From: Chloroflexus aurantiacus J-10-fl
GTDB taxonomy: Bacteria; Chloroflexota; Chloroflexia; Chloroflexales; Chloroflexaceae
Assembly (NCBI RefSeq): GCF_000018865.1
Contig: NC_010175.1
Span: 1,612,001-1,676,000 of the forward strand
Length of the DNA stretch: 64,000 bases
Direction of reading: 5' to 3'
Part shown: positions 1 to 33,137 of the stretch, in pieces
How positions within the stretch are numbered: the first letter of the stretch is position 1
Layout: each line of letters opens with the position of its first letter
Program-made: the position numbers and the translations under genes
Notes under the pieces: generated by a model
What the model was told of the DNA's origin: nothing
Databases searched by the model: none
What the model saw: only the letters and a program-made list of their open reading frames with translations

Positions 1-545
1 GCTTCGATGGTCTCGATGTAATCCCTATTCGCAGCAGCAACCGCGGTTTCGTACTTCACATGCGTGGCCCAGGTGTAGGCGACATCTTCGGCAGTCACCG
101 GCGTGCCGTCGCTCCAGCGGGCAGCCGATTTGATCTTGAAGGTGATTTCGGTGCGATCTGCGTTCCATGTCCAGTCGCCATCAGCCAGCAATGGATATTG
201 CTTACCGTCTAACATGTTATACAAATACGGCGTCTCGAACATGGTCACGCGAGCGCTGTCTTGTAGCGCAATCACCATGCCGTTGTTGTTGTTATTGGAA
301 TAGGGATTCCAACCGACGACCGGTCCCCACTGTAAGCCATTGAAATAGAGCGTTTCCTTACGTGGCAATGCATCAGCGCTTATCGGGGCTGCAACCTGTG
401 TCGGTGCAGACGCTTCGGTCAGCGCAGTTGGAGCCTGCGCTGGCTGCACCGTAGTCGGTTGCCCCACCGGTGCAGGAGATGGGCCACAAGCGGTTAGTAT
501 CACGCTCACCATGAAAACAATCAAAAGACTGAAGCGGTGTTTCAT
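1..545 (-). CDS. Family-5 extracellular solute-binding lipoprotein (partial, C-terminus beyond window)
   Basis: The frame is open from the ATG at 545 to the window edge, giving about 181 residues. It starts with a lipoprotein signal peptide ([11 protein letters not shown]..., lipobox LTAC, so the lipidated Cys is residue 20). A Pro/Thr/Ala-rich linker follows, then the start of an SBP_bac_5 domain, visible as [19 protein letters not shown] and, later, [18 protein letters not shown]. Such proteins are anchored outside the membrane and hand oligopeptides or oligosaccharides to an ABC permease. GGAGGT lies a few bases before the ATG. The gene follows a LacI-type regulator on the same strand 124 bp downstream of its stop, so sugar uptake (for example beta-glucosides) is more likely than peptide uptake; that is inference. 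The permease and ATPase genes would lie left of the window. Confidence 0.88.
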
Positions 546-669
546 AGGTACCTCCACGAAAAAACGTCTGGGATCCAAAACATGGAAATAAATCGATAAG
601 GTACAACATTTACTCCTGGTAGTCCTGGCCTGGTTCACCTCCTTGTTTTTTATCTTGCGTTCCGAATCC

Positions 670-1719
670 TTAATGAGTCTTGGGATGAGTGCTACGTCGC
701 AGCGCTGCTCCACAAGACATACGAACAATCAACCTGGTAGGTAGGACAATATGCTGAACACTAACTTTCGCCGCCTGGGTTGTACAGGTCTCTAACTGTT
801 CAATTAGCGTAGCAGCAGCCAGAAAGCCGATCTGCTCAATTGGATGATGTACCGTAGTCAGAGGCGGATCAATCGTTGTCGCTACCGGCAAGTTATCAAA
901 TCCCACTACGGCAATATCATCAGGAACCTTCAACCCCGCCGCCTGGATTGCTTTTATCGCGCCGACAGCCATGCTGTCATTGGCAGCAAACACGGCATCA
1001 GGCCGAGGGGTAACCTGCAATAGGCGTTGCATAGCGTACTTTCCGCTGGCTTCTGACCAATCGCCCCCCTGAATATATTCCGGATGCGGCTCGATACCCG
1101 CCTCGCGCAGCGCACACAGATAGCCTTCCAGGCGATCATAGGCGCCGACCAGGCTCATTAAACCGGTAATAGTGGCAATCTTCGAGTAGCCAAGCTTCAA
1201 CAGATGCTGCGTAGCCAGGATAGCGCCTTTGAGGTTATCAACATTCACCGAAGAAATATCTGTGCGACCAGGAATTCGACCGATCATGACAAGCGGCAGT
1301 CGTTTGGCCAACAAATGCTGCACGAACGGGTCATCCATCAACGGTGGTGCCAGAAGCAGACCATCTATGTGTCGAGCGTGAATTAACCATTGATAGGTGT
1401 CGTCTTCTTGTCGTAGCACCAGTGATAGCATCAAATAATACCCACGCTCATCACATGCCTTTGCACACCCCTGAATCAATACTGAAAAATACGGATCGGT
1501 AAAAATCGTGCTGAGTGGATGAGGTATGACCAGACCGATGACTCGACTGCGACGACCAGCTAATGCGCGTGCTGCAAGATTAGGCTGAAAATCGTGCTCT
1601 TTAATGATTTGCCATACTCGCTCTCGCATTTCTGGACTCACATGTGGATCGTGGTTAATCACCCGAGAGACTGTCGAGCGTGAACAACCGGCAAGGCGCG
1701 CAATTTCTTCTAGTGTCAT
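670..1719 (-). CDS. LacI-family transcriptional regulator
   Basis: This is a 349-residue LacI/GalR repressor. The N-terminal helix-turn-helix is [20 protein letters not shown] with a hinge region after it ([15 protein letters not shown]). A periplasmic-binding-protein-like effector domain fills the rest, with [17 protein letters not shown] and [14 protein letters not shown] typical of the family. Upstream in-frame codons would give a 393-residue form, but GGAG sits about 7 bases before the ATG at 1719 and the HTH begins right there, so the short form is chosen. It is transcribed first in a unit with the solute-binding lipoprotein and probably controls that sugar transport system in response to a sugar ligand. 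The ligand cannot be read from the sequence. Confidence 0.9.
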
Positions 1720-3009
1720 CTGTATCTCCATTTGGTAGAAACGAATTGCGAGTACATCAGCACTGTATGCTTGTTGTGTTGTTTGTTGGTAAATACCCAC
1801 AAAATGCTGATCATCTTGCTCAGTACTTGATAGGCCAATACTTTGGAACACAGTTCTTGGCTTCTGTGCGACTGCCGGTGCGGAAATAACATGTAGTAAC
1901 GAGGCAATTTGGCAATCGTCCAGATTTGATCAACTCTGTGACTGTATCTAACGTACAGGGATAGTCTCGAATACTGGTCAGCGTGTTGTAAGGAATGCAG
2001 AAATTGTCCACAGCACCGACCAGGGTACATGCCTAAAGGCAGTTTGGGCAGGGATCGAGCGCCATGGATGGTTCGGCACGTTAGACTGCCCAGATGCAAG
2101 CGGAAGGTAACATGCAGGCGTTTGGCAGAGGCAATGTTTACTGTCTGGCTACTGTTGTCTGAGGATACCAACAGGCAACAAAGTCTACTTCGGCGCCTTA
2201 CATCAGATGATAGGGGATACTTTCGATATAACGGTGTTGGAAGAACTTGCTTACCTAGCCGATGGTGTCGCAGGCTCAGAGCGCTAAGTGCGTGTAACTT
2301 AATACCACTCTCAGGACTTGACCATGTAAGGGGAGATGAAAAGTCAGGAGTTAGGCTGTTAACCCATCCACAACTCCCAACAATACCGCTCCTCGTTGAG
2401 TACCGGGTCATGACATACCAGCTATCTTGCGGATGAAGATATTGTCTTAGTAGAGCTTCAGTACATCCTGCATATACTGGTTGATCATCATTGACTGGGT
2501 TATCCACAGTATCCCCCTTTGGATACGAATCTACGCTTCTCTGGCATGCATGTACACCAGCTCAGTTGAGTTTCCAGGAGCAGATGGAATGAAGCTGCTC
2601 ACGATAAGTACTGCTCCACCTCTCTGGTGCACACTGCCACCACATTGTGAGCCAACAACCGCTCTCCTGGCATTCACTGATTAGTCATACACACCAAGGT
2701 GCCGACCAGTATTACTTTATTCTTTCAGATATTTCTGCCGATAAAACACCTTTTCCTGTCGGTTACTAAACGGTTCTCGCATATAACGTGCAACGATGCC
2801 ACTCTTCCTCAAACAACAGTCAACGTTGATGGCGCCTTGCATATTAGTCCTTATACCGGGCAGGTCTGATTATGACATTATTACCAGCGAGAGACCTACA
2901 ACATTTCTTCTTGCGTATCCAGAACATGCAATTGATTCTGCGTATTTTTCAACGTTCAGCACCAAATCATGATTTTGTGGATACTTATCAGGTGTAATAT
3001 CATTCATTA
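1720..3009. other. Long gene-free region with DnaA-box-like 9-mers
   Basis: About 1.3 kb separates the LacI gene from a tandem repeat array and no convincing gene is seen; open frames here have skewed composition and overlap each other on both strands. A perfect DnaA box, TTATCCACA, is at 2500-2508. One-mismatch versions are at 2004-2012 (TTGTCCACA) and 2976-2984 (TGTGGATAC, reverse strand), and a two-mismatch version at 2364-2372 (CCATCCACA). Genes to the left point left and those to the right point right. Whether this has a replication or nucleoid role is speculative. Confidence 0.4.
2500..2508 (+). promoter_or_regulatory. Perfect DnaA-box consensus
   Basis: TTATCCACA matches the bacterial DnaA consensus exactly and lies in gene-free DNA with related 9-mers on both sides. 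A single exact match in a few kilobases can arise by chance, so binding is unproven. Confidence 0.35.
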
Positions 3010-3505
3010 AAACATGGGAGCGCTCTCATCCCATTAGAACCGCCTGCTTCCTCTCGCGAGACTTTGCCCCACAAACATGGGAGCGCTCTCATCCCATTAG
3101 AACCGCCTGCTTCCTCTCGCGAGACTTTGCCCCACAAACATGGGAGCGCTCTCATCCCATTAGAACCGTCTGTTTCCTCCCGCGAGGCTTTGCCCCACAA
3201 ACATGGGAGCGCTCTCATCCCATTAGAACCGCCTGCTTCCTCTCGCGAGACTTTGCCCCACAAACATGGGAGCGCTCTCATCCCATTAGAACCGCCTGTT
3301 TCCTCCCGCGAGACTTTGCCCCACAAACATGGGAGCGCTCTCATCCCATTAGAACCGCCTGTTTCCTCCCGCGAGACTTTGCCCCACAAACATGGGAGCG
3401 CTCTCATCCCATTAGAACCGCCTGTTTCCTCCCGCGAGACTTTGCCCTACAAACATGGGAGCGCTCTCATCCCATTAGAACCGTCTGCTTCCTCTCGCGA
3501 GACTT
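3010..3505. repeat. Tandem array of eight 63-bp units
   Basis: Units begin at 3010, 3073, 3136, 3199, 3262, 3325, 3388 and 3451; the last is truncated at about 55 bp. The period is exactly 63 bp, and copies differ at only a few sites (CGCCTG/CGTCTG, GCTTCC/GTTTCC, CTCTCGCGAGA/CTCCCGCGAGA, one GCTT for ACTT). Each unit carries two dyads: ATGGGAGCGCTCTCATCCCAT, in which GAGCGCTC is a perfect palindrome, and TCTCGCGAGA. Because 63 is a multiple of three, repetitive open frames appear on both strands; no ribosome-binding site or protein family supports translation. There are no unique spacers, so this is not a CRISPR array. Confidence 0.95.
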
Positions 3506-4515
3506 GACTTAAGTATTTGGGAATATTCTAGTTGACCGAGAATATAGCATACCATTGTTGTCTTGTCAACACACATATGAACTCATTTCTTAACCAAGCA
3601 TGTCTGATTAAACCGGCCGCAAGCGTTAATTGATGGGCAGCCATATCTTGACAGTTTATGTATGAGTGCACACAAAATGTTCTAGGAGCAACATAGTCAC
3701 CGCACACTTCCATAATAACAATTGACTGGCTCGCCTCTCAGGTGCACAGTGATAATAGAGAGAAGGTAGTCAGTCATGGTTCTGCACTCCAACTAGGGTG
3801 ACATGGGCATAATTAATGTCTACCAAATCATTCCTAATACTATGGGGTTATGAAGTGACTTCTAACTTTGAAGTCTGTCCAAGATTTTGAAACAATTTAT
3901 ATATAACCAACCTCAAAAACCGTCTGATCATACAGTTCGCATCACAATATTTTTTATCCAGTTTTAACCCCTAAACCTCAAAAATTTCCACAAAATTAAT
4001 CTCTCAAGACCTTGTCAACCAGAATTACACAATGCATTCAATGAGATCATTTTAAAATTCATCAACCACCAAATCAAAATTGTTAATTCACAAGTATCCT
4101 TTATAAATCATTTAAAAATATTTCCAATAACGAACATTTTTATCAGAACAAGACAGTTAAGCATGTAATACGATGGGGTTCTGGCAAGTAGCTCTCTGTT
4201 TGCCTGCTAACAGTGGCAGAATAGATCGTGCCAGGAGCTGTGTTCGCTTCAGACCTGTGTGTACAGTAGAACCACCAAACTCAGACATGCGACCCCAGTT
4301 GGGTCACCAATGACAATCTGTGTCGCTGGGAAGAATTGGAACAGACCAACGACAACCCGGCTCTCAAGGGTTTGGCTTGCTATAGGCACGAACCACGTAT
4401 AATAAAAGAACAAAGTCGCACAGCAGGAACAAAATATTAAGGAAACCACCTGTATTACTGATACGAATGATGTATACCTTCATCGATAACTGTAAACTTC
4501 TATTGAGAGGATGCC
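3506..4515. other. Gene-free, partly AT-rich spacer
   Basis: About 1 kb lies between the tandem array and the acetyltransferase gene. Positions 3880-4150 are strikingly AT-rich compared with the rest of the window, with runs such as TTTATATATAACC and ATTTTTTATCC. No supported gene was found. A short hydrophobic frame at 4249-4449 (minus) lacks a credible start signal. The promoter of the acetyltransferase gene should lie in the last 100 bases, but no clear -35/-10 pair could be assigned. Confidence 0.6.
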
Positions 4516-5280
4516 ATGCAGATTGATATCCGACCGGTGACAACGTATGCCGAATATCGGGCGTGCGAACAGCTTCAGCAACTGGTATGGGGTGATGAGT
4601 TTGTGGTGCCGCTCAACTTACTGACCACCGTACAGCGGAACGGCGGGTTGGTGTTAGGGGCTTTCAAAGGTGACGAACTGGTCGGCTTCGTCTTTGGTTT
4701 TCTGGCGCGCACTGCCGACGGACGGTTAAAACACGCTTCACACATGGCAGCAGTCCACCCCGATCTGCGCGATGCCCGGATTGGCGAACAACTCAAACGG
4801 GCGCAACGCGAGTTTGTGCTGGCCCAAGACCTGGAGCTGATGACGTGGACGTTTGATCCACTGCTGGCCCGGAATGCCCATCTCAATCTGCACAAACTCG
4901 GCACTATCAGCCGTACCTACCTGCGGAATGTGTATGGGCCTGAGCCAGAACTCGTTGATGGCATCCTGCCCAGCGACCGTTTTCAGGTCGAGTGGTGGCT
5001 GGTACACTCGCCATTTGCCCGCCCATCAGCCGATCAGGTTGCCAGATCACCCTTGCTCAACCCAACACTAGATACGCCGGTGCAGATCACCCATGAACCG
5101 GTCGTGCGGCTGGCTATTCCTGCCGATTTTGCTGCTCTTCAGCAGCACGATCCAGCAATTGCCCAGGCCTGGCGTTATCATTTTCGGGCCTGGGCTGAAG
5201 CTGCCTTTGCCGCCGGGTATGTCGTTGTCGATTTTGTGCGTGCAGAGAACTACTATGTTCTGGTTTCGGCAGATGCTTAG
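4516..5280 (+). CDS. GNAT-family N-acetyltransferase
   Basis: A 254-residue protein with a GNAT fold in its first half: IRPVTTYAEYRACEQLQQLVW, then GGLVLGAFKGDELVGFVFGF and HASHMAAVHPDLRDARIGEQL, which fits the acetyl-CoA-binding strand and loop in degenerate form. It resembles the uncharacterised COG3375-type acetyltransferases, which are longer than ordinary GNAT proteins and have a C-terminal half of unknown role. The substrate cannot be predicted. GAGAGG lies just before the ATG. The gene stands alone between a gene-free region and the regulatory region of the glycan cluster and points the same way as that cluster. Confidence 0.75.
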   Translation: MQIDIRPVTTYAEYRACEQLQQLVWGDEFVVPLNLLTTVQRNGGLVLGAFKGDELVGFVFGFLARTADGRLKHASHMAAVHPDLRDARIGEQLKRAQREFVLAQDLELMTWTFDPLLARNAHLNLHKLGTISRTYLRNVYGPEPELVDGILPSDRFQVEWWLVHSPFARPSADQVARSPLLNPTLDTPVQITHEPVVRLAIPADFAALQQHDPAIAQAWRYHFRAWAEAAFAAGYVVVDFVRAENYYVLVSADA

Positions 5281-5400
5281 ACGAGCAACCCAAGTTACCA
5301 ATCAGTACCGCATGCAACTAGTTTGACACATCCCGCCGGGGAACGTACAATCAAAAGGGCAGGCATACTGAACATTGTCATAGATCACGGACATGCCCGG

Positions 5401-5513
5401 CATGCGGCTTGCCGGCCCATACGGTTTGTCGTATATCATCTGCTGGCGCTTCATCACAGATTATCAATACCCCAGCATACGACGTACCGACCTATACGGT
5501 TTGTCGTCTATCG
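5401..5513. promoter_or_regulatory. Duplicated palindromic operator-like motif before glgE
   Basis: Two imperfect direct repeats of about 38 bp start at 5401 and 5476, exactly 75 bp apart. Their cores, at 5416-5437 and 5491-5512, match at 20 of 22 positions around ATACGGTTTGTCGT. In the first copy the core is a perfect dyad, ATACG-GTTTGT-CGTAT; the second copy is degenerate on one arm. They sit 50-160 bp upstream of the first gene of the glycan/trehalose cluster. A dimeric regulator bound at both sites, seven helical turns apart, is a reasonable inference; no regulator gene is adjacent. Confidence 0.5.
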
Positions 5514-5560
5514 CAAGTGCACAGAACGCACATTGCTTGCTGTCAAATTGAGGAGGTCTA

Positions 5561-7600
5561 ATGACCGTCAAGGAGTCACGCACTCGTACTCGCCGCACGG
5601 CGGCAAAAGCGAAACTCGATCTATCGGTGATCGGTGAAGGACGGCGACGGGTCATTATTGAAGCGGTTGAGCCAATCATTGATGGTGGTCGTTATCCGGT
5701 GAAGCGAATCATCGGTGATACGCTGGTGGTCAGTTGCGATCTGTTTGCCGATGGTCATGATGAACTGGCAGCAGTAGTACGCCATCGACCGGTCAGCGCT
5801 AAGACATGGCATGAAGCACCAATGCGCTTACTGGTCAATGATCGTTGGGAAGGTCAGTTTACCCTGAATAGCATCGGTCGGCATGAGTTTCAGGTTGTGG
5901 CCTGGATCGACCGTTTTGCGACCTGGGTGCATCAACTTGAGAAGCGGTTGGCTGCCGGGCAAGATGTGCGGGTCGATTTGCAGATCGGTGCCGCGCTGGT
6001 TGGTGAGGCTGCACGCAATGCCAGTGGCGCTGATGCTGCGGTGCTGCATGTCGCCGAAGCGGCCCTGATTGCCGGTGACGTTGATACAGCCTTTGCCGCT
6101 GAAATCCACTCCTTGATGGCTGTCCATTTGCCACGCCGATTTGCTACCGAGTCTGAGATTTACCCGATAACAGTCGAACGCGAACGAGCACGCTTTTCCG
6201 CCTGGTACGAGCTGTTTCCCCGCTCGGCGGCTGACGAGCCGGGTCGCCACGGCACGTTCCGCGATGTGATCAAGCGGCTGCCGTACATTGCCGAACTCGG
6301 TTTTGATGTGCTGTACCTGCCACCGATCCATCCGATTGGATATACCTTCCGCAAGGGCAAAAATAACAGCCTGAATGCCGGCCCCAACGATCCGGGCAGC
6401 CCATGGGCGATTGGGAATGCCGATGGCGGGCATATGAGCATTCATCCCGAATTGGGCACATTGGATGATTTTCGGGCGCTGGTGCGCGAAGCGCAGAAAT
6501 ACGGTATCGAAGTAGCACTTGACATCGCGTTCCAATGCTCACCCGATCATCCGTACGTGCGTGAGCATCCAGAGTGGTTCCGCGCTCGCCCAGACGGAAC
6601 CATCCAGTATGCCGAGAATCCACCGAAAAAATATCAGGATATCTACCCGTTCGATTTTGAATCGGAAGACTGGCAGGGGCTATGGCAAGAGCTGCGCCGG
6701 GTCTTCGAGTTCTGGATCGAGCAGGGTGTGCGTATCTTTCGGGTGGATAACCCGCATACCAAGAGCTTTCGCTTCTGGGACTGGTGTCTGAACTCGCTGA
6801 AGAGTGCGCATCCCGACCTGATCTTTCTCTCGGAAGCGTTCACCCGGCCAAAGGTGATGTACCATCTGGCCAAGATTGGCTTTACGCAGAGCTATACCTA
6901 TTACACCTGGCGCACTACCAAACACGAGTTGACCAGCTATCTGCAGGAATTGAATACCCGCCCGGTCAGTGATTTCTTCATTCCCAATTTCTGGCCGAAT
7001 ACGCCTGACATTCTGACCCCACAGTTTTACGCTGGTCAGCGCTCGGTGTTTATGACCCGCGCTGCGATGGCGGCGACGTTGACGGCCAGTTGGGGTATGT
7101 ACGGCCCGGTGTATGAATTGATGGAGCACACGCCGGTAGCCGGACGTGAAGAGTACATTAACAATGAGAAGTACGAAATCCGGCACTGGAATCTCGATGC
7201 ACCGCACAGCCTGCGCGGCTATATCGGCCAGCTCAATCGGATTCGGCGTGAGCATCCGGCCCTTCACCGGAATGACACCCTGCGCTTCCACCGCGTAGAC
7301 ATCGATTTTCACGAGCACGAATGGTTGCTCGCGTATAGCAAGACATCACCGGACGGCAGCGACATCATTCTGGTGGTGGTCAACCTTGACCCCGAACGTA
7401 CCCACAGTGGTTGGGTTCAGGTGCCGCTGAACGACTGGAACGTGAATGGCGTGTTCCAGGCCCACGATCTGTTGACGGACGCACGTTACACCTGGTCGGG
7501 AGAGTATAATTACGTGCAGCTCAGCCCGATGGCTCCCGTCCATATCTTTTGTATTCGCCGGCTCCGCCGTGACGAGCGCGGCTTTGAGTATTTCGCCTGA
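5561..7600 (+). CDS. glgE: Alpha-1,4-glucan:maltose-1-phosphate maltosyltransferase
   Basis: A 679-residue GlgE (GH13 subfamily 3), which transfers maltosyl units from maltose-1-phosphate to the non-reducing ends of alpha-1,4-glucan. The N-terminal 200 residues form the beta-rich and helical domains of the family, and the (beta/alpha)8 barrel begins near FSAWYELFPRS. VLYLPPIHPIGYTFRKGKNN is typical of the substrate pocket. The catalytic nucleophile is D396 in FRVDNPHTK and the acid/base E425 in LSEAFTRP. The length matches the family. GAGGAGG precedes the ATG. It is the first gene of the cluster, 23 bp before treS-mak, whose maltokinase domain makes its substrate; glgB follows and branches its product. 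Confidence 0.95.
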   Translation: MTVKESRTRTRRTAAKAKLDLSVIGEGRRRVIIEAVEPIIDGGRYPVKRIIGDTLVVSCDLFADGHDELAAVVRHRPVSAKTWHEAPMRLLVNDRWEGQFTLNSIGRHEFQVVAWIDRFATWVHQLEKRLAAGQDVRVDLQIGAALVGEAARNASGADAAVLHVAEAALIAGDVDTAFAAEIHSLMAVHLPRRFATESEIYPITVERERARFSAWYELFPRSAADEPGRHGTFRDVIKRLPYIAELGFDVLYLPPIHPIGYTFRKGKNNSLNAGPNDPGSPWAIGNADGGHMSIHPELGTLDDFRALVREAQKYGIEVALDIAFQCSPDHPYVREHPEWFRARPDGTIQYAENPPKKYQDIYPFDFESEDWQGLWQELRRVFEFWIEQGVRIFRVDNPHTKSFRFWDWCLNSLKSAHPDLIFLSEAFTRPKVMYHLAKIGFTQSYTYYTWRTTKHELTSYLQELNTRPVSDFFIPNFWPNTPDILTPQFYAGQRSVFMTRAAMAATLTASWGMYGPVYELMEHTPVAGREEYINNEKYEIRHWNLDAPHSLRGYIGQLNRIRREHPALHRNDTLRFHRVDIDFHEHEWLLAYSKTSPDGSDIILVVVNLDPERTHSGWVQVPLNDWNVNGVFQAHDLLTDARYTWSGEYNYVQLSPMAPVHIFCIRRLRRDERGFEYFA

Positions 7601-7623
7601 TAGTTGTACGATGAGGGAGTGGC

Positions 7624-10600
7624 ATGAACCGTGTACGCCCGGCCAAGACGCCGACTCTGTTAGCCGATGATCCGCTCTGGTACAAAGATGCGGTCATCTA
7701 CGAATTGCACGTGCGCGCTTTTTGCGATAGCAATGGTGATGGTATCGGAGATTTTCCCGGTCTGACCAGCAAGCTCGACTATCTGCAAGATTTGGGCGTA
7801 ACGGCAATCTGGCTGCTCCCCTTCTATCCCTCACCGCTGCGCGATGATGGCTACGATATAGCCGATTATACGAACATTCATCCCAATTACGGCACGCTGG
7901 CCGATTTTAAGGTGTTTATTCGCGAAGCCCATCGGCGTGGGCTGCGCGTCATCACCGAGCTTGTCTGTAACCACACCTCTGACCAGCACCCCTGGTTTCA
8001 ACGTGCCCGGCGGGCTAAGCCCGGTACTTCAGCCCGCAACTTTTATGTCTGGTCGGATACACCCGACCGCTACAAGGACGCCCGGATCATCTTCAAAGAT
8101 TTTGAGACCAGTAACTGGACGTGGGATCCAGTGGCGCAGGCGTACTACTGGCACCGCTTCTACAGCCATCAACCCGATCTCAACTTTGAAAATCCGGCTG
8201 TCCAGCGGGCTGTCTTCAAGGCGATGGAGTTCTGGCTCGATCTGGGAGTCGATGGCATGCGTCTCGATGCCATCCCCTACCTCTACGAAGCAGAGGGCAC
8301 CAATTGCGAGAACCTGCCGGAAACCCACGCCTTTCTCAAACGCTTACGTAAGCATATGGACGAAAAGTACCAGGGGCGTATGTTTCTCGCCGAGGCCAAT
8401 CAATGGCCAGAAGACGCGGTTGCCTATTTCGGGGATGGCGATGAGTGCCATATGGCCTTTCACTTCCCGGTGATGCCCCGCCTCTTTATGTCGGTTCACC
8501 TTGAGAATCGCTATCCGATCATTGATATTATGCGGCAAACGCCGCCAATACCCGACAATTGCCAGTGGGCAATCTTTCTGCGCAATCACGATGAACTGAC
8601 CCTCGAAATGGTCACCGATGAAGAGCGCGACTATATGTACCGGGTCTACGCTCGCGATCCCCAGGCCCGGATTAATCTCGGCATTCGCCGACGACTGGCA
8701 CCATTGCTCGGCAACCATCGCCGCAAGATCGAGTTAATGAACGGATTGCTCTTCTCGCTGCCCGGTACGCCGGTGATCTATTACGGTGATGAGATCGGGA
8801 TGGGCGATAACATCTACCTCGGCGACCGCAACGGTGTGCGCACGCCGATGCAGTGGAGCGGTGATCGGAATGCCGGTTTTTCGCGGGCTAATCCTCAGCA
8901 ACTCTATCTGCCGGTAATTACCGATCCGGAGTATCACTACGAGACGGTCAACGTCGAGACGCAAAGCGCCAATCAGCATTCATTGTTATGGTGGACGAAA
9001 CGCCTGATTGCACTACGGAAGCGTTACGCCGCATTTGGCCGGGGCACGCTCGAATTTCTCTATCCCGAAAATCGTAAGGTGCTCTGTTTCCTGCGCAAAA
9101 CCGAGGATCAGATTCTCCTGGCCGTTTTCAATCTGTCGCGGTTTGTTCAGGGTGTCGAACTCGATCTCTCGCCGTACCGTGGCCTGATGCCGGTTGAGCT
9201 ATTCGGTCAGGTGGAATTTCCACCGATTGGCGATCAGCCCTATTTCCTGACCCTTGGCCCACACAGCTTCTACTGGTTTACGCTAACACCGCAACGGATT
9301 GAAGGAGTACGCTTGCCCACACCCCAACCTGAAACCGAACTGGTTGAGATTCCGGTTGATGCGATTGAGTGGGATGCGATCTTCTACGATGGCCGGCAGG
9401 CGCGGCTTGAGCGAGTCTTACCCGATTACCTGCGTTATCGGCGCTGGTTTGGGGCCAAAACACGCAAGATCAAACAGGTGCAGGTAAGCGAGTTTGCCCG
9501 TCTCGATTATGCCGGTGGCCCAGCCTACCTGACACTGTTGCAGGTCACCTATGTTGAAGGCGCCCCAGAAACCTACTTGTTGCCGATGGCGTATGCCGAA
9601 GGCGAGCGCGCCGACCAGATACTGGCCGATCAACGCCACATGGTGATTGCCCGCCTACGGGTTGGCCGTCGACCTGAAGCCGGTATCCTGTACGACCCAC
9701 TCGGTGAGCGTCGCTTTGCGTCGGCGCTCCTGGAACTGATAATCGGACGACGCCGTCTACGGGGTGAAGCCGGTGGAGAGCTGGTGGGTGGCACGACCCG
9801 TGCGCTCCGCAAGCTTCTCGGCGGTAGTGATGGCCTGGAACCGAGTTTGATGCGTGGCGAGCAGAGCAATTCATCGATCAATTTTGGTGGTCGGCTCATT
9901 ATGAAGCTCTTCCGTAAGATCGAGCTGGGCCGCAATCCCGATCTGGAACTGGGACGTTTCCTGACCGAAGAGGTTGGGTTCCCCCATACACCACCGGTAG
10001 CCGGCTACATTGAATATCTGCGCGGCAAAGATGAACCGTTGACGCTGGCAATCGTTCAGGGCTATGTGCAGAACGAAGGTGATGCCTTCGATTACGCGCT
10101 CGATGTCGTGCGCCGCTACTATGATACGGTGCTCACCCGTACCGATGTCGTGCCACCGGTTGTGAAGGCAAGCGTTGCCGGCATGCTCGCGGCTGCGCAT
10201 CAGCCACCGCCAGCCCTGGTTGAGGAATTGATCGGTGGTTACCTCGAGTCGGCACGCCTGCTCGGTCAGCGGACTGCGGAGATGCATCAGGCTCTGGCCA
10301 AAGGAAGTGGACCGGCAATGGCACCTGAACCCTTCTCGACCCTCTACCAGCGCTCAATCTACCAGAGTATTCGGAGTCTGATCGGGCAAACCCTGCAAGA
10401 TTTGCGGAAACTGCTGCCGTCGTTGCCGGCAACCGTTCGTCCGGCGGCAGAGCGTGTTACCCAGAGTGAAGAGGCGCTCCTGGCGCGGTTGCAACGGATT
10501 ACCGGTGACAAGATCGAGACGGTGCGTATTCGCATTCACGGTGACTACCATCTCGAACAGGTGCTCTTCACCGGCAAAGATTACATGATTATCGACTTCG

Positions 10601-10986
10601 AGGGTGAACCACTGCGCCCAATCAGCGAGCGGCGGATCAAACGCTCACCGTTGCGTGATGTGGCCGGCATGTTGCGCTCATACCAGTATGTCGCCTATGC
10701 CGCTCTATATGCCCATAATGGTGCAAGCAGAAGCGCTGAAGAGATCGAGCGACTTCAGCGCTGGGCTGATATGTGGAGTTTCTGGGTCTGTGCAGCCTTT
10801 CTTAATGGCTATCTGACCACAGCCGGCCATGAAGCATTCGTCCCCCAGGATCAGGCCGATCTCGAAGCCCTGCTCGAGACGTTTGTCGTCGAAAAAGCCG
10901 TCTACGAACTGGGTTACGAGATGAACAATCGCCCTGACTGGCTGCCGATCCCGATCAACGGCATCTTACGCCAGATTGAAGAATGA
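7624..10986 (+). CDS. treS: Trehalose synthase / maltokinase fusion
   Basis: A 1120-residue bifunctional protein. Residues about 15-550 are a GH13 trehalose synthase that isomerises trehalose and maltose: [20 protein letters not shown], nucleophile D215 in GMRLDAIPY, acid/base E257 in [11 protein letters not shown], and the third acidic residue in RNHDELTLE. From about 590 to the end is a maltokinase (Mak/Pep2) that phosphorylates maltose with [14 protein letters not shown] near its start, kinase-like [11 protein letters not shown] (H972) and MIIDFEGEP at the phosphate-transfer site. In many actinobacteria the two are separate or complexed proteins; fusion channels trehalose-derived maltose into maltose-1-phosphate for GlgE. 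GGGAG precedes the ATG. Confidence 0.95.
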
Positions 10987-11045
10987 TCGCTGCCGCCGAT
11001 GTTCCTGCACTACCATCGGCTTGAAGCACCATAAAGGAGGCTGCA

Positions 11046-13079
11046 ATGAGTGATACCGAAAAACCTCGCCGCACCCGCCGTAAACAGGTGGCGAATACTG
11101 ATGAGCCTTCCACGACAGTGACGGCCTCGACCACGGATGCACCAACCGCAACCATTGAGGAACCTTCGGCGGCTGCTCGTGCTATGATGACCAGTATCCT
11201 CAGCGAGGATGATATTTATCTGTTCAACCAGGGCACCCATTACCGCTTGTACGACAAATTTGGTGCTCAGCCGGTGGTGCTGGAAGGTGTACCGGGCACC
11301 TATTTTGCGGTTTGGGCACCAAATGCCGAGTATGTGGCCGTGATCGGCGACTGGAATAACTGGGACGCCGGTGCCAACCCGCTCCGGCAGCGCGGCTTTT
11401 CGGGTGTGTGGGAGGGATTTATCCCCCACGTCGGTAAAGGCATGCGCTACAAGTTCCACATCGCCTCGCGCTACTACGGCTATCGCGAAGACAAGACAGA
11501 TCCCTTCGGCACCTACTTCGAGGTCGCACCGCAGACGGCTGCCATTATCTGGGATCGCGATTACACCTGGTCGGATCAACAGTGGATGAGCGAACGGGGG
11601 CAGCGGCAGCGCCTCGATGCGCCGATCTCCATCTACGAAGTGCATTTGGGATCGTGGCGGCGCAAACCGGAAGAGGATAACCGTCCGCTCAATTACCGTG
11701 AACTGGCCCACGAGCTGGTCGAGCATGTGAAAGATTGTGGCTTTACCCACGTTGAGCTGTTACCGGTCACCGAGCATCCCTTCTACGGTTCCTGGGGGTA
11801 TCAATCGACGGGTATGTTCGCGCCGACCAGCCGGTACGGAACGCCGCAAGACTTCATGTATTTTGTGGATTATCTGCATCAAAACGGGATTGGGGTGATC
11901 CTCGATTGGGTGCCCAGCCACTTCCCGACCGACGGTCATGGGCTGGCCTACTTCGATGGTACCCATCTCTACGAACACGCCGATCCGCGTAAAGGCTACC
12001 ATCCCGACTGGGGAAGCTATATTTACAACTATGGTCGGAACGAGGTACGAAGCTTCCTGATCAGCTCGGCGCTCTGCTGGCTGGATAAGTTTCACATTGA
12101 CGGGATACGGGTTGATGCGGTTGCGAGCATGCTCTATCTCGACTATTCGCGCCGAGCCGGCGAGTGGATTCCCAACGAATACGGTGGGAACGAAAATCTG
12201 GAGGCGATTAGCTTCCTGCGCGAATTGAACACCCAGATTTACAAGTACTACCCTGATGTGCAGACAATTGCCGAGGAGAGCACAGCCTGGCCGATGGTAT
12301 CGCGACCGGTCTACGTTGGTGGATTGGGCTTCGGCTTCAAGTGGGACATGGGCTGGATGCACGATACCCTGCAGTATTTCCGGCGCGATCCGATCTACCG
12401 GCGCTTTCATCACAACGAATTGACCTTCCGTGGCCTCTACATGTTCAGCGAGAACTACGTGCTACCACTCTCGCACGATGAGGTCGTTCACGGCAAAGGG
12501 TCACTGCTCGACAAGATGGCCGGCGATGTCTGGCAAAAGTTTGCCAACCTGCGCCTGCTCTACAGCTATATGTTTGCTCAACCCGGTAAAAAACTGCTCT
12601 TCATGGGTGGTGAATTCGGACAGTGGCGCGAATGGTCACACGACACCAGCCTGGACTGGCACTTACTGATGTTTCCCTCCCATCAGGGCGTACAACGATT
12701 GATTGGCGATCTTAACCGTCTCTACCGTACTGAGCCGGCCTTGCACGAACTGGACTGTGATCCACGTGGGTTTGAGTGGATCGATGCCAATGATGCCGAT
12801 GCCAGCGTCTACAGCTTTCTGCGCAAGAGCCGCTACGGCGAGCAAATTCTGATCGTGATCAATGCCACGCCGGTCGTGCGTGAGGATTACCGAATTGGGG
12901 TACCGGTGGGTGGCTGGTGGCGTGAATTGTTTAACAGCGACTCGGAGTATTATTGGGGAAGTGGGCAAGGCAATGCCGGCGGCGTGATGGCCGAAGCAAT
13001 TCCAACCCATGGCCGGGATTTTTCGTTGCGACTGCGCCTGCCGCCCCTGGGTGCGCTCTTCCTGAAACCTGCCGGCTAA
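11046..13079 (+). CDS. glgB: 1,4-alpha-glucan branching enzyme
   Basis: A 677-residue GH13 branching enzyme (EC 2.4.1.18) that introduces alpha-1,6 branches in the cytosolic glucan. A polar N-terminal tail of about 50 residues, rich in Thr and Ala, precedes a CBM48-like domain ([20 protein letters not shown]). The barrel has [33 protein letters not shown], nucleophile D357 in [17 protein letters not shown], the catalytic Glu in AEESTAWP (E410 or E411) and [13 protein letters not shown]. All landmarks of GlgB are present and the length is normal. AAAGGAGG is an optimal ribosome-binding site. It lies 59 bp after treS-mak and 267 bp before treZ. Confidence 0.96.
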
Positions 13080-31631: not shown

Positions 31632-33137
31632 ATGGGCGACTCACCGAACCCAACATTTTGTGCGAGCTGTGGACATAAGCTCACCCCGGAAGATCGCTTT
31701 TGTCCAGAGTGTGGTGCGCGAGCACCTGAACGACCGTCGGCACCGGCTGCAGGAGCACCACCCACGGTGGTAATTCCCCCTGGACAAGCCGGAGCGGAAA
31801 CCTCACCTGAAGCAACGGCGGCCCCAATATTTTGCATGAACTGTGGACGAAAGCTCACCCCAGAAGATCGTTTCTGCCCAGAGTGTGGTACGCGAGCACC
31901 TGAGCGACCTTCGCCACCAGCCACAGGAGCACCACCCACTGTTGTCATCCCACCGCAGCAACCCACCGCAGGAGCAGCACCAACGGTGATCATTCCTCCA
32001 GATCAACCGACTCCGGGTGCGCCACCAACCGTCATGATTCCCCCGGAGCAGCCGGCAACAGGGGCACCGCCTACCGTCGTCATCCCACCGCAGCAACCGA
32101 CGCCAGGGGTACCACCCACAGTCATTATCCCCCCTGAACAGCCACCAGCGGGAGCTGCTCCAACTGTCGTGATCCCCCCTGAGCAGTCACCGGCAGGCGT
32201 ACCACCAGTCACCCCTCCTCCACCCCAACCGTCGGTGGGAAGAACACCTGCTTCTTATCCACCACCGGTCATACCACCTGCCCAGAGTGCAGGAACGCCA
32301 CCAGATCCATTTATGCCGCCACCGGTAACCCCTGTCTCGTATGGCCCACCACCTGCCGGCACCGACCCATTCCAGGTACCCTCAACCACAAGCCCGATGC
32401 AAACCGCCGGGACAAACAAGTGGTTGATCTGGGGACTGGTAGGCGGAAGCGGGTGCTTACTCCTGATCTTGATCGGCATATGTGTATTCATTGCCGTATC
32501 AATCTTCGCGGTTGTCGACTCCGTGCCAACCAGCAGTTCGACTGAGGCAACGGCAACTACCGGGGACGGAGGTTCGCTGGCATCAGGGAGCAGCGGTAGG
32601 GTCTTGTTCAGTGATGATTTCGAGAATCCACAGGCCAGTGAACTGGGAGAGAGTGAAGATAGCAGTTCACGGTATGCCTACGAAGCAGGCCGGTATGTCA
32701 TCGAAGTCAAAGAGCCAGAACTATTGGTCTGGGCGTTGGTGAATGGATCTTACCGCGATGTCATTATTGAAACCAGCTATTCTACTGTTCGAGGGGGGCC
32801 GGTTGGCGCTGCGGGTATCATCTTCAATTATCAGGACGAGGATAACTTTTATCTGTTCAGTGTGTCGAATGATGGGTATTACGCACTTGAGCTGTTGGAG
32901 AACAATCAGTGGATAACCCTGATCGATTGGACGCAGCACGAAGCGATTGACCCCGAAAATAATCGGCTCCGGGTTGAACTCAACGGCGATGAGATCACGC
33001 TGTTTGTAAATGATCGTCAGCTTGAACAGACCCGCGATCCAACATTTACGCGCGGTGACATTGGGCTGGCGGTCACCAGTTTTGATCAGAGTGGGATTAC
33101 GGTGAGTTACGAGGAGATCACCATTCGCAGCCGGTAA
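31632..33137 (+). CDS. Double zinc-ribbon membrane protein with Pro-rich repeats
   Basis: A 501-residue modular protein. Two near-identical zinc ribbons at the N-terminus (FCASCGHKLTPEDRFCPECG and FCMNCGRKLTPEDRFCPECG) each have CxxC-x12-CxxC. A Pro-rich region of about 200 residues follows, built from degenerate repeats of PPTVVIPPEQP with threonines that could be phosphorylated. A single membrane helix is at about 257-285 (WLIWGLVGGSGCLLLILIGI). A C-terminal domain of about 190 residues, outside the membrane, resembles DUF1080/laminin-G-like carbohydrate-binding folds (VLFSDDFENP, AAGIIFNYQDEDNFYLFSVS). The role is unknown; a cytosolic ribbon coupled to an external binding domain suggests sensing or envelope scaffolding. 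Confidence 0.75.
   Translation: MGDSPNPTFCASCGHKLTPEDRFCPECGARAPERPSAPAAGAPPTVVIPPGQAGAETSPEATAAPIFCMNCGRKLTPEDRFCPECGTRAPERPSPPATGAPPTVVIPPQQPTAGAAPTVIIPPDQPTPGAPPTVMIPPEQPATGAPPTVVIPPQQPTPGVPPTVIIPPEQPPAGAAPTVVIPPEQSPAGVPPVTPPPPQPSVGRTPASYPPPVIPPAQSAGTPPDPFMPPPVTPVSYGPPPAGTDPFQVPSTTSPMQTAGTNKWLIWGLVGGSGCLLLILIGICVFIAVSIFAVVDSVPTSSSTEATATTGDGGSLASGSSGRVLFSDDFENPQASELGESEDSSSRYAYEAGRYVIEVKEPELLVWALVNGSYRDVIIETSYSTVRGGPVGAAGIIFNYQDEDNFYLFSVSNDGYYALELLENNQWITLIDWTQHEAIDPENNRLRVELNGDEITLFVNDRQLEQTRDPTFTRGDIGLAVTSFDQSGITVSYEEITIRSR

Follow-up and report, generated by a model that had tools for sequence, protein, structure and literature searches.

CebR, also called CelR, is the LacI-family repressor of actinobacterial cellulose and cello-oligosaccharide genes. 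Many copies of one transcription-factor site make up synthetic lacO and tetO arrays, and regular direct repeats with dyads are characteristic of replication iterons and parS/ParB-type arrays.

In Streptomyces, CebR represses cellulose-use genes and binds TGGGAGCGCTCCCA, with one to three boxes per gene in the portion of the source drawn on here (PMC5332605). LacI-family operators in general are even palindromes with a central CG, and more than 75% of the sites lie 30-140 bp before the start codon, according to an extract of PMC4052901. Synthetic operator arrays and decoys offer many copies of one site able to bind and titrate a transcription factor, and natural decoys are mentioned in general terms in the sections of that source considered (PMC7826281). 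Prokaryotic satellites, in an excerpt of PMC6749651, are noncoding tandem arrays of near-identical units. A search of the literature on natural tandem operator arrays, decoys, and homotypic clusters brought up synthetic decoys and minisatellites used for typing; no such bacterial array was reported among the papers listed.

The window analyzed here, meaning the whole 64-kb stretch of DNA (bases 1612001-1676000 of the one-contig, 5,258,541-base genome of Chloroflexus aurantiacus J-10-fl), contains a tandem array that shares features with each of these systems. Every unit carries TGGGAGCGCTCTCA, a 14-bp palindrome matching 13 of the 14 letters of the CebR operator, and, as with CebR, a repressor gene lies beside an ABC-type uptake operon; unlike the one to three CebR boxes per gene, the sites number eight, at a spacing of 63 bp in perfect tandem, and lie ~1.3 kb from the gene. 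Synthetic arrays and decoys likewise present many copies of one bindable site, whereas the Chloroflexus array is natural, stands beside a probable repressor gene, and appears to have been made by tandem duplication. It is noncoding with near-identical units, as prokaryotic satellites are, but its unit carries an identifiable regulatory site. Iterons and parS arrays have its regular direct repeats and dyads but a different motif, and no Rep or Par gene was found among the eight neighboring proteins scanned.

Structure and uniqueness of the array

The array was delimited by TRF with a period of 63, 7.9 copies, 96% matches, 0% indels, and a score of 908:

3010..3505, no strand assigned: tandem array of eight 63-bp units, the eighth being 55 bp (TRF and unit table)

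Units start at 3010+63k, giving seven full 63-bp units and an eighth that falls out of register after 55 bp. They differ at five columns only (34, 38, 45, 52, and 61) and without indels, with units 1, 2, and 4 identical to one another and units 5 and 6 likewise, so that the eight near-identical tandem repeats described in a sequence-only reading of this DNA are real. That reading also assigned two palindromes to each unit, which is correct for the first, found in all eight, whereas the second, TCTCGCGAGA, is whole in half of them (units 1, 2, 4, and 8), the other half (units 3, 5, 6, and 7) having a C in place of a T. GAGCGCTC is present in 8/8 units. The proposed grouping of units 3 and 5-7 was borne out at columns 38 and 45, and the pattern of variants held in common supports the local duplication suggested with it. 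Since the units are nearly identical, the array is either young or homogenized. Invariance of the operator across all eight units is not significant alone (P about 0.22), and selection on the operator was accordingly dropped as a reading of unit variation.

Within its own genome the unit occupies a single locus, elsewhere yielding just three short, weak matches (E 0.5 or worse). The sequence-only reading had proposed a search of related genomes, and this gave no real counterpart: against 40 other genomes of the family the best match was short (E 0.108), with matches at E up to 10 in 30 of them. A mobile or dispersed repeat was rejected on these grounds, and a conserved intergenic element was rejected because 1726-4494 had no match at E 0.001 in seven other Chloroflexus genomes.

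Tandem arrays are common in this genome. In the table rows examined from PMC6749651, C. aurantiacus has the highest satellite count of any bacterial entry (76, or 14.4 per Mb, for a genome of 5.26 Mb), and the density per Mb is higher in Burkholderia pseudomallei chromosome II (23.0). A 398 kb sample of the genome gave 88 TRF rows, partly overlapping. Other repeats seen include a further tandem array of the same genome, 116 bp x 9.6 (L232:5009-6122), whose unit contains AGCGCTCTCGCG and which has no ORF spanning half of it; a large array (L235:13889-19714) of 37-bp repeats spaced about 74 bp apart, by its look a candidate CRISPR; and 45/135-bp repeats at window positions 31923-32186 (TRF), Pro-rich by eye and perhaps inside a coding region.

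Operator-like sites in the array and in other genomes

A motif scan combined with the unit table placed one operator candidate in each unit, none with an assigned strand:

3015..3028, no strand: operator TGGGAGCGCTCTCA, unit 1
3078..3091, no strand: operator, unit 2
3141..3154, no strand: operator, unit 3
3204..3217, no strand: operator, unit 4
3267..3280, no strand: operator, unit 5
3330..3343, no strand: operator, unit 6
3393..3406, no strand: operator, unit 7
3456..3469, no strand: operator, unit 8, nearest the predicted promoter

Across the whole genome, TGGGAGCGCTCCCA was matched with one mismatch at eight places, all of them array units, and with two mismatches at 21; its reversed control pattern gave 10 matches at two or fewer mismatches. 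The unit dyad, with half-sites TGGGAGC and GCTCTCA, is an even palindrome pairing at 6/7 positions around a central CG, in agreement with the LacI-family operator rule. The array lies ~1.3 kb upstream of the repressor start, outside the typical 30-140 bp range; because that position is typical rather than universal, it is no defining feature of a LacI-family operator. The gene in question is the following:

670..1719, minus strand: LacI-family repressor gene, 349 aa, first of its operon (Pfam PF00356 and PF13377, both scored on a longer 393-aa frame, 670-1851)

The 349-aa frame is intact, without a stop, and close to the array; an in-frame ATG at 1731 offers an alternative start. The 500 nt immediately upstream of the gene hold no site of four or fewer mismatches.

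Homologues of the repressor were used for a phylogenetic footprint. A search of 120 genomes of the class gave 45 matches, spread over 35 of them, and of the 30 listed the window's own was left out, leaving 29. Within 400 nt upstream of a start codon chosen by script, a site with at most two mismatches was present in 23/29 homologues (at most one mismatch in 9/29); two further homologues had a site with three mismatches, and the remaining 4/29 had none of three or fewer. By comparison, 209 permuted half-site palindromes reached at most 2/29 homologues (mean 0.05), and a 400-nt coding control had a site in 0/29. The homologues span 18 genera by hand count, 13 of which have the site, and the 29 loci are not independent because they include seven from Chloroflexus and six from one other genus. 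Exact copies of TGGGAGCGCTCTCA, on either strand, were found upstream of homologues in two loci (L104 and L105) and elsewhere in a third (L097). Given the excess over permuted palindromes, a LacI-family operator is the very probable identity of the main palindrome, and a natural operator cluster that of the array. The sequence-only reading had proposed a protein-binding array of the nucleoid, partition, or replication type; its binding array is well supported by this comparison. The most likely protein is instead the nearby LacI-family repressor, because the unvarying dyad is identified as a LacI-family operator by the footprint.

The closest repressor paralogue in the same genome has sites at -30 (two mismatches) and -114 (three mismatches), and its operon encodes permeases and a binding protein along with genes judged by eye to be GH3- and GH16-like, which point to beta-glucans. 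In this assembly the reading frame of the paralogue itself (C1:1498799-1499815, minus strand) is interrupted by a stop at codon 204, and the gene seems broken when compared with the frames of at least 338 aa in its relatives within the genus. A further LacI gene, L119 (C1 near 483529-483660), has a perfect palindrome, TTGCAATCGATTGCAA, at -29, likely an autoregulatory operator. This paralogue has the same SRSTVSR helix as the window repressor and a different palindrome upstream; the helix alone therefore does not fix the site, and recognition-helix residues were dropped as proof of specificity.

Clusters of such sites were also sought in 84,980 genomes, a set that may lack the genome of the window itself or those very near it. 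No stretch was returned for three sites at 48-78 bp periods, using a pattern that required TGGG at the first site. A two-site pattern retrieved 84 stretches, and in the 80 examined the clusters (sites of at most two mismatches, no more than 150 bp apart) comprised two sites in 66 loci and three in 14, never more. The three-site scan missed a locus of Actinokineospora fastidiosa (L138:1128-1274), so the limit of three sites applies to the 80 examined loci only. That locus, with three CebR-type boxes 64 and 69 bp apart, is the nearest natural counterpart seen. A repressor homologue was present in 46/80 of the paired-site loci (2.7-8 kb each) and in 0/38 control 8-kb chunks, these being from the window's own genome only and excluding L224, which had been fetched for its LacI gene; 42 of the 46 homologues have RST[VA]S in the recognition helix. 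The natural pairs and triplets, from Actinobacteria and Chloroflexota, are thus like the array in placing the same 14-mer repeatedly within 150 bp, often with a LacI homologue in the locus. They differ in having at most three sites, and of the loci examined only that of Actinokineospora has three exact TGRGAGCGCTCYCA at 48-78 bp, unevenly spaced.

Transporter operon, leader region, and promoter-like site

Two further features define the surroundings of the array:

1..728, minus strand: SBP_bac_5 solute-binding protein gene, 5' part (Pfam and genome reading)
3541..3569, minus strand: promoter-like TTGACA-17-TATATT with TG before the -10, 11/12, found by scan and pointing through the array to the repressor gene

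The operon continues beyond the window with two permeases and two oligopeptide-type ATPases, the stretch from the binding-protein frame to the last ATPase occupying genome positions 1606361-1612728. The true start of the binding protein lies inside the 1..728 frame, since relatives align from residue 66 or later. Pfam assigned seven of the eight proteins beside the array to families unconnected with replication or partition and one to none. In the relative G008, a Dam-type methylase gene lies close to the homologue of the gene at window position 4516; in C. aurantiacus, a minus-strand block of LacI repressor, SBP_bac_5, permeases, and ATPases lies between the methylase and 4516 genes. Between these two genes, just upstream of its 4516 homologue, G008 has a different 75-bp x 5 array (L059:8302-8652), so that unrelated arrays occupy one syntenic place.

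A search of 399 other genomes of the phylum for relatives of the binding protein (E <= 1e-80) gave matches in six, four at 66-79% identity and two at 35-36%; six other Chloroflexus genomes in that set had none. This rarity suggests that the ABC transporter operon was probably acquired by transfer. Among the four orthologous transporter operons an operator lies near one, that of G308, where the transporter gene is 66% identical, the LacI gene is 45% identical to the window repressor, a two-mismatch operator precedes the binding-protein frame by 207 nt, and a gene that by eye resembles GH3 beta-glucosidases lies behind the transporter. The operon of G329 has a LacI gene 34% identical and, in the stretch read, no site of three or fewer mismatches; the G322 and G455 stretches have neither a LacI gene nor a site near the transporter.

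The region of the array had been described as gene-free DNA, in agreement with a Pfam scan of ten of the 35 open frames (40 aa or more, 1700-4520), which gave no match above the cut-off and supports no gene between the repressor gene and 4516. Since 63 is divisible by 3, frames stay open across the array whichever strand is read. A coding repeat was rejected, the open frames following from the period and two plus-frame Pfam matches being below the cut-off and meaningless; so was a pseudogene between the flanking genes, the ten frames lacking a meaningful match. Rfam returned nothing at gathering score in 1-12000, its one sub-threshold match being a Na+ riboswitch at 3857-3912, which scored 18.9 bits where 40.5 is the cut-off.

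The promoter-like site is the sole one of at least 11/12 in 1650-4600. Shuffles of 1732-4515 gave 11/12 or better, on either strand, in 26/400 cases, 4/400 with the TG; four sites as good occur in the real window of 64 kb, two of them with TG. The end of the site is 72 bp past the last operator. From a predicted start at ~3534, the first operator would lie at about +65 and the transcript would pass all eight before reaching the repressor gene, leaving a predicted leader of ~1.8 kb, odd in its length, without a recognizable gene.

Proposed mechanism and competing explanations

We propose, as the probable reading of these comparisons, that the array provides the nearby LacI-family repressor with eight operators in a homotypic cluster, produced by tandem duplication and serving as promoter roadblock and sponge. 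One operator-bearing 63-bp segment would have been duplicated in tandem to give eight operators, and the minus-strand repressor encoded ~1.3 kb away would bind ATGGGAGCGCTCTCAT in each unit. The putative promoter at 3569-3541 (minus) would drive transcription through the array to the operon, and a row of roadblocks is proposed because the array lies just downstream of this strong promoter-like site pointing at the operon. Bound repressors would form that row and, at the same time, a local repressor store, or sponge, shutting their own operon. The predicted outcome is a tight, switch-like shut-off of this oligosaccharide/peptide-type transporter operon, relieved by the transported substrate, perhaps a beta-gluco-oligosaccharide. 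As 63 bp corresponds to about six turns at 10.5 bp, the operators would face one side of the DNA, which may be luck. Binding, regulation, and copy-number variation are all inferred here.

The main rival is a neutral satellite, which we rate somewhat below an even chance: a segment with one working operator was amplified by slippage or unequal recombination, and the extra copies are passengers. Amplification may be incidental in a genome as rich in tandem arrays as this one, with its 76 satellites in the excerpt of PMC6749651 and the dense TRF rows of the 398 kb sample. The unrelated 75-bp x 5 array that G008 has at this syntenic position, ahead of its 4516 homologue, also favors neutrality, as do the near identity of the units and the clustering of their variant types; yet the amplified segment carries the genome's only near-consensus site of its kind, beside a likely repressor gene. 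Somewhat less likely again is a pure decoy that holds the repressor without promoter control and buffers free repressor to give a threshold response of the operon. Eight sites distant from the repressor start codon would suit such a role, and synthetic decoys behave so in Escherichia coli, as reported in part of PMC7826281, but the promoter-like site 72 bp past the last operator points through the array.

Two other explanations have far less in their favor. Leader-transcript hairpins acting as attenuators or processing sites are very unlikely: the TGGGA...TCCCA arms could pair, and on the plus strand units 5-6 are better folded than 200/200 shuffles (z -2.8), with units 2-3 weaker (z -1.04), but on the predicted-transcript strand three stretches are not clearly better folded than shuffles (z 1.14, -1.80, and 0.04), no terminator-like site was found in 1650-4600, and Rfam, as noted, gave no match at gathering score. 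RNA structure in the predicted transcript was rejected on the folding result. An array for iteron, partition, or nucleoid proteins is more improbable still; its regular period and dyads are there, but no replication or partition protein occurs among the eight neighbors scanned, the dyad is that of a LacI-family operator, and the array is at a single chromosomal locus and was not found in the 40 other family genomes.

For the preferred reading of a repressor-bound operator cluster, a bolder extension is speculative and on balance unlikely: a natural eightfold array between promoter and repressor operon would, through repressor titration and stacked roadblocks, act as a switch with a threshold, its set point shifting with the number of units, and so as an evolvable satellite rheostat. 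To our knowledge, long tandem operator arrays and sponges are mainly laboratory constructs and models. Among the many satellites of Chloroflexus, this array is a candidate for one that bears a function, and, if the proposal is true, satellite amplification can tune a bacterial switch.
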